A DNA stretch of 29,910 nucleotides from a virus, in IMG/VR virus record IMGVR_UViG_3300013004_000133, positions 1-29,910 of that record, one strand, 5' to 3'. Of this stretch, positions 6,235-10,773 are shown piece after piece. Below the pieces are notes generated by a model, which saw only the letters and a list, made by a program, of their open reading frames with translations, did no database searches and was not told where the DNA came from. Position 1 is the stretch's first letter; every line of letters begins with the position of its first letter. A program made the translations under genes and the position numbers.

Positions 6235-6242
6235 TATTTATT
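6235..6242 (-). promoter_or_regulatory. T4-type late promoter for gp18
   Basis: AATAAATA on the minus strand, 33 bases upstream of the gp18 ATG, one mismatch from TATAAATA, with AAAGGA between it and the start codon. Confidence 0.6.
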
Positions 6243-6268
6243 TGGTTTTGGCAAAACAACCAGGTTAC

Positions 6269-6291
6269 AGGAGCCTTTATAAAGGTCTCCT
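6269..6291. other. Imperfect palindrome in the divergent gp18 / HNH-like spacer
   Basis: AGGAGCCTTT pairs with AAAGG-T-CTCCT around a central AT, a 10-bp stem with one bulged base. It contains the self-complementary CTTTATAAAG and ends on the first base of the plus-strand late promoter. It could be a hairpin, an operator or a barrier between the two divergent units; no T tract marks it as a simple terminator. Confidence 0.45.
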
Positions 6292-6298
6292 ATAAATA
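6291..6298 (+). promoter_or_regulatory. Perfect late promoter TATAAATA before the HNH-like gene
   Basis: An exact T4 late consensus, ending only 5 bases before ATG 6304. In T4 this octamer covers about -13 to -6, so the predicted start point falls on the A of that ATG. The mRNA would be leaderless, or translated from the second in-frame ATG at 6319. Confidence 0.65.
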
Positions 6299-6303
6299 TT
6301 TGC

Positions 6304-6657
6304 ATGAATGAACGCAATATGTGTGGGGCTTGCCATCAACAGCAGGTGGCTATAAACTATATTCGCAACGGTAAAACTTATTTTAGAGCCGTATGCGGCA
6401 CTTGTGCTAGGAAAGGCAAAAGATTAAAGCCCAGTCCACCACAATGGTACAAAAGCGGATACAGAAAAAAACCGCACTGTGACATGTGCGGTTTCAAAGC
6501 TGAGTTACCAGAAAAACAGCTTGGAGTTTTTCATATTGACGGTAATAAACGCAACACTGATAGAAGCAATCTTAAAACTATATGCCTAAACTGTCAGCAA
6601 GTGGTTTATAGATCGCGACTTCCTTGGCGTGCTGCGGACCTTGTACCAGACTTCTAA
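6304..6657 (+). CDS. Zinc-ribbon / HNH-endonuclease-like protein
   Basis: 117 residues. Cysteine pairs CGAC (8-11) and CGTC (about 36-39), then CDMC (about 59-62) and CLNC (about 96-99), suggest two zinc knuckles. Between the last two pairs is FHIDGNKRNTDRSNLKTI, an HNH-like His-Asn arrangement. Similar short proteins occur in many marine T4-like phages and are usually labelled HNH endonuclease or hypothetical; nuclease activity is not shown by the sequence. The C-terminus (LPWRAADLVPDF) is antisense to the end of the dNMP kinase gene over 80 bases. No Shine-Dalgarno is close to ATG 6304, and Met6 (6319) is an alternative start. It is a lone plus-strand gene among minus-strand genes. Confidence 0.75.
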   Translation: MNERNMCGACHQQQVAINYIRNGKTYFRAVCGTCARKGKRLKPSPPQWYKSGYRKKPHCDMCGFKAELPEKQLGVFHIDGNKRNTDRSNLKTICLNCQQVVYRSRLPWRAADLVPDF

Positions 6658-7252
6658 TCTGAGTGTACAAGTCTTCAATCTTACCATTGTTGTTTATAAT
6701 CATGTCAAAATCTGTTCCAGCCCAGCTGGTTTCACTGGCATGAATATTGTTATTTGACAACCACAGTTGTGCTTTGGTGTCGCCTGCGTTGGCTCGTTCA
6801 GCTATTTCGTACCAATGGGGTACAGCACCGCGCTGTATCCACACAATTTTTCCACCCTGAGCTCGTATAGCTTTTACTTCATTAGGAAAACGCACATCGC
6901 TGATCACTGTATGATCACTGCGTTTGGCCAGTCTGGATTCCAGGGCTGCAATCCAAATATCATCATGAAAGTTGTTACGCAATACATCTGTACCCCAGTA
7001 TTGTAAAATCCACCGCGGAGTCAAATGCGGTATATTGAGCCTGGTAGACCACCATTCATCCACTTGTTCACGCCAGGCACGAGCTTCTGGTGTGCGTCCT
7101 TCTATCAGTTCTCTGTCCCATCCAAACACAGCACTTACTGCATCTTTGAGTGTGTTAGCAAAACTGTCACGACGAAATCCATGAAAGCCAACCAGATAAT
7201 CTGCTGCGGTGTCTTTGCCTGCGCCTATCAAACCACAAATGCCTATGATCAT
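6578..7252 (-). CDS. gp1: Deoxynucleoside monophosphate kinase, T4 gene 1 family
   Basis: 224 residues. It phosphorylates dNMPs (in T4 dTMP, dGMP and hydroxymethyl-dCMP) to dNDPs in the cytoplasm for phage DNA synthesis. A P-loop GLIGAGKDT occupies residues 7-15. DSFANTLKDAV (about 29-39) matches the substrate-side helix, and ISDVRFPNEV (about 117-126) is the conserved family block. Length is close to T4 gp1 (241). Start ATG 7252 follows GGGG-C-TTTTTT, the 3' arm and T run of a terminator hairpin; a sigma-70 promoter starts transcription inside that hairpin's loop. The last 80 bases overlap the convergent HNH-like gene. An early promoter fits its role in nucleotide metabolism. Confidence 0.92.
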   Translation of the reverse strand: MIIGICGLIGAGKDTAADYLVGFHGFRRDSFANTLKDAVSAVFGWDRELIEGRTPEARAWREQVDEWWSTRLNIPHLTPRWILQYWGTDVLRNNFHDDIWIAALESRLAKRSDHTVISDVRFPNEVKAIRAQGGKIVWIQRGAVPHWYEIAERANAGDTKAQLWLSNNNIHASETSWAGTDFDMIINNNGKIEDLYTQIRSLVQGPQHAKEVAIYKPLADSLGI

Positions 7253-7276
7253 AAAAAAGCCCCTGAGTATGGGGCT
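7253..7276 (-). terminator. Terminator of the gp13 operon, abutting the dNMP kinase ATG
   Basis: On the minus strand AGCCCC, a 7-base loop, GGGGCT and TTTTTT, immediately followed by ATG 7252. The 3' arm also supplies the GGGG Shine-Dalgarno of the kinase, 7 bases from its ATG. A full-length transcript from upstream would hide this site in the stem and terminate; one started at the adjacent promoter would not contain the 5' arm. Confidence 0.8.
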
Positions 7277-7305
7277 AGTTTACAACAAATTTTGATGAAT
7301 GTCAA
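7277..7305 (-). promoter_or_regulatory. Sigma-70-type promoter for dNMP kinase
   Basis: Minus strand: -35 TTGACA (7305-7300), exact consensus; 17-base spacer; -10 TAAACT (7282-7277), 4 of 6. The -35 box contains the TGA stop of the upstream gene. The predicted start is about 7270, the first loop base of the terminator hairpin, giving an 18-base leader. Confidence 0.7.
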
Positions 7306-7682
7306 ACACCATATTTGTTCTTTTTCTTTACAGGCACCAGACTTTGTTTGTTTGTGTCTTTAAGTTCAAGGCTACGCATGTTACCTTTGTTTAGATCTTT
7401 ATAGTTAGCTCCAACCAATTTGTAACTTTGCTTCAGCATGTCATCTTCTTCTTTGGTATAAGGATGTGCGGTGTGTTTTTTACCAAAAAAAGTTTTTGGA
7501 TCCATGTTAGCTGTATTGCCTTTACCGTCTGCGCAGGCCAGAGCCAACCCTAAACGAAAATGCGTATAATCAGTGTTGGATCTTTCAGCATCGCTGAACA
7601 GATGCAAACCTGGGTTGGACTCCTTGTAGTTGTTAGGCACACTGCCAGCACGAACTTCATTTATAATTTCACGAATTTTCAT
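7302..7682 (-). CDS. Small protein of unknown function downstream of gp13
   Basis: 126 residues, not assigned. The first residues, MKIREIINEVRAG, resemble a short N-terminal helix (M-K-x-R-E-I-I-x-E) that I recall on many T4-like phage proteins. The rest is polar, with DYTHFRLGLALACADG (about 38-53) and a Lys-rich C-terminus ending KKKNKYGV. The start ATG 7682 directly follows the TAA of the preceding gene with no gap, indicating translational coupling. It is the last gene of the gp13 late operon, before the terminator at 7253-7276. The coupling and codon-level continuity support a real gene. Confidence 0.7.
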   Translation of the reverse strand: MKIREIINEVRAGSVPNNYKESNPGLHLFSDAERSNTDYTHFRLGLALACADGKGNTANMDPKTFFGKKHTAHPYTKEEDDMLKQSYKLVGANYKDLNKGNMRSLELKDTNKQSLVPVKKKNKYGV

Positions 7683-8299: not shown

Positions 8300-9433
8300 T
8301 TATCCTATTACCCATGTGTATGGTTGACTACCGTCAATGAAACGCTTTAGCTCTTCTTCTAGTGCATCCATTTCGGCTTTTGCTTCGGTTTTAAGCGCAG
8401 ATCCGTTCAGTTGTGTGCCGCCTTGTGGGCCAGCAATTTGCGCAAATTTTTCTCGGGCCTGGCCCAACATGTCCTTGGCTGTGGCCAAGGCATAATCTGC
8501 TATCCAAGGATATATTCTATCGTCGTTGAGTATCATGCTTTCAGGCTTCTTGTTGTAGATCCATAGCAGCACTGTTTCAGAAGGATCTTCATTGCCCGGT
8601 GCATAGATATTTGTTTTGTTTAGTTCGTATCCATTCACCACTGTGGCACCAAGAATTTCTTTGCTTTCAATAGTAAACAGCGTGTTGCCATTGGATGCTG
8701 TCAAAACTTCATAGGTGTTGTTGTATCCTGTAACAGGACAATTGATAATTCCAATGGTACTACCTACCGTGACTATGTCCCAAGGATCTTGCATTTCAAA
8801 AGTGATTGTACTGCCTACTGCTGTGCCGCTGGCGCTGAGAGTTTTCATGCGGCGATAGTTGTGCCCGGTGTTGGGCATTTTGCGCACAAGTGTCAACTTC
8901 TTGGTAACTGGATTCCAGGTAAAATTCATGTAGCCGCCAAACATGCGCATGGCCAACTCTTGGTATTGACTGAACAATTCGTAGTTGACCAAGCCACCCA
9001 CACGGCCTGCTACCAACATATAGGTATTCAAGTAACCTGATGCAAATGGTTCAAATTGGCTGGCAGTGGTACCTGTCACGCTGCCAATACCTCTGCGGAA
9101 CACTTGACGCACAGTTTGTATTTCAGCTGGCAGGATATATTCTTGTGTTTCTGGCAACAGCTCAAGGAAAGCATAGCTTTCTTCTTCGGCATTTTGAGCT
9201 CGTTGTCTGTATCTTGATAGAGCTTTGTCTATTGCAGTCTTGTAGTGCGCTGGATCCAGTTCCACATCAACCATGCCGTCACCAAGGCGAAAACGGATAT
9301 AGTCTTCTAATTCTTTTCGCTTGGTACTGGTAGCCGTGAGTCCGGTTTCATCATAGGCAATTGGACCCGGGCCGCCCAAGCTGTCTGTTGTTAGAGCTTG
9401 CCTTCCGTTGAGTCCTGTTTTGAGTGTGGCCAT
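8300..9433 (-). CDS. gp13: Neck protein, T4 gp13 family (head completion)
   Basis: 377 residues, against 309 in T4. gp13 and gp14 form the neck that closes the filled head and joins the tail. Recognisable core: LDPAHYKTAIDKALSRYRQR (about 59-78) with FLELLPETQEYILPAEIQTV and VFRRGIGS (to about 117), a pattern shared with cyanophage gp13. The middle segment (about 195-280) looks inserted and strand-rich. The C-terminus has a coiled-coil-like stretch, EAKAEMDALEEELKRFIDG. ATG 9433 sits right after a hairpin and six T residues, with GGGGA as Shine-Dalgarno. gp13 is separated from gp14 here by two unrelated genes and a strand switch. Confidence 0.82.
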   Translation of the reverse strand: MATLKTGLNGRQALTTDSLGGPGPIAYDETGLTATSTKRKELEDYIRFRLGDGMVDVELDPAHYKTAIDKALSRYRQRAQNAEEESYAFLELLPETQEYILPAEIQTVRQVFRRGIGSVTGTTASQFEPFASGYLNTYMLVAGRVGGLVNYELFSQYQELAMRMFGGYMNFTWNPVTKKLTLVRKMPNTGHNYRRMKTLSASGTAVGSTITFEMQDPWDIVTVGSTIGIINCPVTGYNNTYEVLTASNGNTLFTIESKEILGATVVNGYELNKTNIYAPGNEDPSETVLLWIYNKKPESMILNDDRIYPWIADYALATAKDMLGQAREKFAQIAGPQGGTQLNGSALKTEAKAEMDALEEELKRFIDGSQPYTWVIG

Positions 9434-9473
9434 AAAAAATCCCCGTATGCTGTATTTAGCACACGGGGATTTT
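9434..9473 (-). terminator. Long hairpin terminator between the 409-residue gene and gp13
   Basis: On the minus strand AAAATCCCCGT (9473-9463) pairs with ACGGGGATTTT (9446-9436), an 11-bp stem. An inner TGCT/AGCA stem extends it, and a T run reaches the gp13 ATG. It follows the upstream stop codon by 12 bases. The 3' arm carries the GGGGA ribosome binding site of gp13, the same arrangement as at the dNMP kinase start. On the plus strand it also ends in TTTT. Confidence 0.85.
9453..9460 (-). promoter_or_regulatory. Degenerate late promoter inside the hairpin loop before gp13
   Basis: GCTAAATA on the minus strand, two mismatches from TATAAATA, 20 bases upstream of the ATG, within the 20-33 base spacing of the other minus-strand late promoters here. 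The predicted start at 9447 is the last loop base, so the transcript would begin with the 3' arm only. Support is spacing plus partial consensus, so confidence is moderate. Confidence 0.45.
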
Positions 9474-10744: not shown

Positions 10745-10773
10745 ATTATACGCAAAAACGGAAAAAAGGTCAA
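10745..10773 (-). promoter_or_regulatory. Strong sigma-70-type promoter for the 409-residue gene
   Basis: Minus strand: -35 TTGACC (10773-10768), 17-base spacer, -10 TATAAT (10750-10745, exact). Predicted start about 10738, leaving a 22-base leader with GGGAG. The -35 box contains the TGA stop codon of the 89-residue gene, as at the dNMP kinase promoter. Confidence 0.85.

Follow-up and report, generated by a model that had tools for sequence, protein, structure and literature searches.

A conserved promoter-in-hairpin module at the dNMP kinase start of giant phages resembles the late-promoter hairpins of T4

T4-like phages carry PeSL (promoter-early stem-loop) cassettes that combine a strong sigma70-like early promoter with a stem-loop at gene starts and that are repeated many times within the variable regions of a genome, where they mediate gene shuffling. 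These cassettes (Arbiol 2010; Comeau 2014) are cited in PMC4503421. At the T4 genes e, soc, 49, I-TevI and segB and at Aeh1 mobE, a late promoter lies within a hairpin that masks the ribosome-binding site; this promoter-in-hairpin logic has been established by experiment for T4 e and I-TevI, and the T4 precedent acts at translation (PMC3014915, PMC2988022).

Here we describe an element that most likely represents an early sigma70 version of the T4 e, soc and I-TevI hairpins fused with an intrinsic terminator. It lies in a window of 29,910 nucleotides (the whole stretch of viral DNA analysed, IMG/VR record IMGVR_UViG_3300013004_000133) directly before the ATG of a gene that the first-pass annotation had called a dNMP kinase, an identification borne out by profile matches. 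The element and its immediate surroundings comprise the following features:

7300..7305, minus strand: -35 hexamer TTGACA, overlapping the TGA stop of the upstream 126-aa ORF
7277..7282, minus strand: -10 hexamer TAAACT, spacer of 17 nt
7271..7276, minus strand: hairpin 5' arm AGCCCC, which doubles as promoter discriminator and is predicted to be absent from locally started RNA
7264..7270, minus strand: loop ATACTCA, holding the predicted transcription start A7270
7258..7263, minus strand: 3' arm GGGGCT, carrying the Shine-Dalgarno sequence (GGGG in the window; AGGAG or GGAG in most relatives)
7253..7258, minus strand: T6 run, terminator tail and spacer between Shine-Dalgarno and ATG
6578..7252, minus strand: dNMP kinase gene (T4 gp1-like, 224 aa; PHROG 139, E 8e-55; Pfam DNMK)
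6468..6495, minus strand: terminator-like hairpin 3' of the kinase, by which the kinase would form a transcription unit of its own
7302..7682, minus strand: 126-aa ORF immediately upstream of the kinase, ending inside the -35 and varying among relatives

On the minus strand, TTGACA-17-TAAACT thus abuts the hairpin AGCCCC/7-nt loop/GGGGCT, which is followed by the T-run and, directly after it, by the kinase ATG at 7252; the promoter is assigned to the sigma70 type by consensus. The first-pass annotation had described the promoter with its -10 directly against the hairpin just as we find it, and its predicted start at 7270, the first loop base, coincides with the consensus position at +7 from the -10. 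Its hairpin with T6 at the ATG is likewise present, except that the six Ts include one shared with the stem (the last T of GGGGCT). As it had proposed, a new transcript is predicted to lack the 5' arm, but instead of GGGGCT-T6-ATG the predicted RNA reads AUACUCA-GGGGC-U6-AUG; the GGGG that it had proposed as Shine-Dalgarno does sit in the 3' arm but is a weak one. With its GC-rich stem followed by a T run, the hairpin has the form of an intrinsic terminator.

From this layout we propose that the element is a composite of sigma70-type promoter, intrinsic terminator and ribosome site, and that the kinase is probably expressed only from its own promoter. A polymerase starting locally would begin in the hairpin loop, so that its transcript would lack the 5' arm and leave the Shine-Dalgarno of the 3' arm free. 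RNA coming from the upstream virion genes would have both arms and fold, and it would then terminate at the U-run or, on read-through, conceal the ribosome site; arms, T-run and -10 would each serve two functions. The actual start site, termination, silencing and the meeting of an early promoter with late upstream transcription are what we infer from these elements, and comparison with relatives and known systems appears to support the mechanism well.

In the window alone, promoter-like matches are as frequent as the shuffle mean (13 found vs. 12.9 expected), and a claim of significance from the window alone was therefore rejected; terminator-like matches are modestly enriched (15 vs. 8.1 expected), and the fold z-score of the element is -2.05. 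Judged by conservation, the combination of promoter, hairpin and ATG is far beyond chance because of its recurrence among relatives, the covariation of its stem and its rarity at other ATG starts. A homology search with the kinase yielded 80 IMG/VR loci, 73 of them distinct, and 32 of these 73 show TTGAC, a 16-18 nt spacer, a -10, hairpin, T-run and ATG with identical order and contacts. Far from being lost in relatives, where the first-pass annotation had suggested looking for it, the arrangement is thus kept in full at these loci. The automated count had been 33, from which L072 (T-run, no hairpin) was taken out by inspection, and module frequency was drawn from homology-retrieved loci only, pattern-retrieved loci being biased for prevalence. 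In two further loci of the 73 (L003 and L008), the T-run is missing but stem pairing and Shine-Dalgarno persist.

The arm pairs vary among relatives (AGCCCC/GGGGCT, AGCCTC/GAGGCT, ATGCTC/GAGCAT, ATGCCC/GGGCAT and others), with 96% of cells paired over nine distinct arm pairs. There are nine double-change cells vs. 3.0 in shuffles, none of 500 shuffles reaching as high, and the pairing score drops sharply once the partners are slid; placing the arms by best pairing brings some circularity, which makes the double changes and the slide control the stronger part of this evidence. For an independent test of the -35, two DNA patterns covering the -10 and hairpin only were scanned through all of IMG/VR. 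A correctly spaced TTGAC is present at 44/44 distinct hairpins in kinase context, compared with 0/35 hairpins of the same motif elsewhere, so that the full promoter goes with the kinase context rather than with the hairpin per se. Among the ~7,900 other ATG starts of the fetched loci there is one comparable module (a second listed match, L077, is itself a kinase), i.e., the kinase is essentially the only site there; one further true sigma70 composite (L223) is found in a 354-kb relative, where the rest of the TTTTTTATG sites are terminators or chance matches. On these comparative grounds, the promoter-in-hairpin module at the kinase is real and conserved in a family of giant phages.

Across 53 distinct modules, the first purine at +6 to +8 after the -10 falls within the loop in every case, so that by consensus the local RNA would lack the 5' arm in 53/53, as in T4 gene e-type hairpins. 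The 3' arm or loop edge bears GGAG/AGGAG, AGGG or GGGG about 7-8 bases from the ATG, and the stem core has a median of -8 kcal/mol. In folding predictions, the median unpaired probability of the Shine-Dalgarno is 0.007 in read-through RNA vs. 0.43 in initiated RNA, i.e., locally started RNA would still be partly folded, and the site is more exposed in initiated than in read-through RNA in 53/53. The window's read-through RNA is predicted to pair the start codon region as well, giving by folding the paired Shine-Dalgarno and AUG of upstream-initiated RNA in the gene e type, and the predicted structure of its locally started RNA is no greater than chance.

Like the T4-type hairpins, the kinase element would hide the ribosome site in long upstream transcripts, and a promoter in or beside the 5' arm would produce a short translated RNA without that arm. 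In T4, however, masking guards a gene that has a late promoter of its own against read-through from early transcription, whereas the kinase promoter is of the sigma70 type and lies downstream of late genes; the kinase hairpin also differs from the T4 systems in the terminator-like T-run that adjoins the ATG. The hexamers at the kinase are TTGACA/TAAACT, with no ATAAATA of a gp55-type late promoter. A direct late-promoter analogue of the T4 systems is present in the window at the neck gene, as seen in the wider neighbourhood:

8300..9433, minus strand: neck / head-tail adaptor Ad2 (gp13-like) gene
9434..9471, minus strand: neck-gene composite, a hairpin with a late-promoter-like CTAAATA (about 9459-9453) in the loop region, a 3' arm with GGGGA, a T-run and the ATG at 9433
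6235..6242, minus strand: T4-type late promoter AATAAATA of the tail sheath gene, in contrast to the kinase promoter
10745..10773, minus strand: sigma70-type promoter TTGACC-17-TATAAT of a 413-aa ORF, with no hairpin

The hairpin had been taken to end the gp13 operon; the upstream cluster does hold the gp13-like neck gene, but the adjacent gene is the 126-aa ORF and the neck gene lies two genes further up. The gene order neck protein, variable small genes, kinase, tail sheath is shared by uncultured contigs and cultured jumbo phages, the latter including CBB, BF, GAP32, 121Q, Munch and Hallingskeid. The genes just 5' of the kinase differ among relatives, and the module remains with the kinase. 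In nearly all relatives the tail sheath gene has a T4-type NATAAATA late promoter, as do about eight other structural or neighbouring genes of the window, the promoters in all these cases sitting 26-45 bases before the ATG; the kinase start, unlike the structural genes of the window, has none. In CBB, a gp55-like sigma factor has been described along with two promoter classes, RpoD-like and ATAAATA, the latter before structural genes (Buttimer et al., PMC5259590). These promoter classes, together with late promoters on structural genes and not on the kinase, indirectly support an early/late contrast between them, in which the kinase would be early.

At the neck gene, where the window reads ATCCCCGTGTGCTAAATACAGCATACGGGGATTTTTT-ATG, the start is in its sequence the T4 gene e arrangement. 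A T4-type (C/A)TAAATA, i.e., a late promoter of the gp55 type, is enclosed in a hairpin pairing with the Shine-Dalgarno in 42 of the 43 scored distinct relatives, nine of which are isolates (cultured jumbo phages among them); four further starts went unscored because the Shine-Dalgarno was not found or the motif was a GTAAATA variant. The unpaired probability of the neck-gene Shine-Dalgarno is predicted as 0.00 in read-through RNA and as 0.45 if RNA starts at the late motif, and control starts (sheath, tube, 413-aa ORF) range from 0.38 to 0.58. The 413-aa ORF precedes the neck gene and is the first after a divergent boundary; therefore no read-through reaches it.

The idea is not unprecedented given the T4 gene e-type hairpins, RB49 modB and the PeSL cassettes. 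At the RB49 modB start (L236:9420-9490, minus strand), TTGACA-17-TATTAT stands against GCCTCC/12-nt loop/GGAGGC, followed by T6, ATT and ATG. Both the order of elements and the contact between promoter and stem are identical to the kinase element, whereas the gene is a different one, the ATG lies 3 nt further on and early-type genes flank it on either side. This is the sole RB49 start with the architecture of the window, with none in a reversed-sequence control, and 58 phage records (Krischvirus) share the arrangement; in some of them a promoter, a terminator or an RBS is annotated there, each on its own. Since modB shows this architecture between genes not known to belong to different classes, an early/late boundary is not required for it.

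With the PeSL cassettes the kinase element shares a sigma70-type early promoter joined to a stem-loop. The usual RB49 stem-loop occupies the spacer/-10 ahead of the start, and leader and Shine-Dalgarno are separate from it (18/42 promoter matches), whereas the kinase hairpin straddles the start and itself forms the Shine-Dalgarno. Assignment of the kinase element to the PeSL class was rejected on this hairpin position, which is not in the spacer/-10 and leaves no separate leader and Shine-Dalgarno.

The same layout could in principle reflect compaction only, with a terminator that ends the upstream operon and a kinase promoter and ribosome site that overlap to save space, masking being irrelevant. 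The T-run is present in 32 of 34 module-bearing loci, and in Munch, Hallingskeid, XaC1, GAP32, CBB and BF a terminator precedes the kinase and the Shine-Dalgarno follows the terminator, as such a design would have it. We nevertheless consider this explanation unlikely, as the Shine-Dalgarno is always carried by the 3' arm, the two kinase loci without a T-run retain the paired stem with it, and most neck-gene counterparts lack a good T-run and nonetheless keep the masking hairpin. Translational masking only, as in T4 gene e, with no appreciable termination and the T-run as a spacer, would agree with the short stem (median core of -8 kcal/mol), with the two loci that have no T-run and with the translational precedent of T4 (PMC3014915, PMC2988022); it is quite improbable in the light of T5-T6 being near-invariant at the kinase though any spacer would serve, unlike at the neck gene. 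Finally, a fortuitous or weak promoter match with translation of the kinase from polycistronic RNA, compatible with chance-level promoter-like matches in the window and with some module-less relatives sitting in operons, is very hard to reconcile with a TTGAC found at its proper spacing in every kinase-context case and in none of the others, and with an average of 1.7 bits in the -35 and -10 columns as opposed to 0.68 in the spacer (selection biases the -10 in part).

If the composite of promoter, terminator and ribosome site works as proposed, it would carry the hairpin principle of T4 late promoters over to an early promoter, with termination as an added function, and would show how some 50 bp of DNA let a phage house an early gene within a cluster of late structural genes. 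New would be the early-type promoter version of the late-promoter hairpin switch, fused to a terminator and found beside a late counterpart at the neck gene. More tentatively, and with some doubt on our part, jumbo phages of this group might use the promoter-in-hairpin as a general boundary device between co-oriented genes of different timing: the late version would shield the late neck gene against sigma70 transcripts arriving from upstream, and the sigma70 version would shield the early kinase against late transcription, each class being expressed only from its own polymerase form. Because cultured phages of laboratory E. coli carry like designs (RB49 modB; the 121Q neck gene), these ideas are directly testable, and such compact insulated start elements could be of use as genetic parts.

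Many kinase homologues without the module have a leaderless promoter, a plain leader or a kinase behind an inserted gene. Leaderless-looking starts (L036, L053, L056, L066, L068, L076, L079-L081), in which the -10 ends ~5-6 bases before the ATG with no Shine-Dalgarno, suggest leaderless kinase translation in some clades, possibly another means of coupling translation to a local promoter. One clade has a kinase promoter with an ordinary leader; in other clades an inserted exonuclease-like gene, with TGTGCTATAAT before its own start, precedes the kinase, and a sigma70-type promoter still heads the inserted unit. None of the cultured relatives examined showed the window's form of the regulatory region before its kinase, and a DNA similarity search against phage records gave short matches only. 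PA5oct has no hairpin upstream of the kinase, nor has the kinase of Vibrio phage 2.275.O, which follows a divergent gene (a single case). In Atu_ph07 (L203), a long hairpin GGTATTCTC...GAGAATACC upstream of the kinase includes a -10-like TATTCT in its 5' arm, stops 3 nt before the ATG and has no T-run.

A few further observations concern other starts. The composite of the 354-kb relative (L223, G001:C1:185203-185461) has TTGACA-17-TATACT inside GCCTATAC-TTAACC-GTATAGGC-T6-ATG and precedes a 153-aa gene without PHROG match. At the neck genes of 121Q (L206, gp548) and Kaldavass (L213), the annotated start codons fall within the hairpin or loop, and the ATG after the T-run agrees better with relatives. 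In most relatives, a palindrome-like block (A)CCTTTGCAAAGGG...GTAAC lies ~40-60 nt 5' of the tail sheath late promoter; its copy in the window is CCTTTATAAAGG, at about 6268-6294 on the minus strand.
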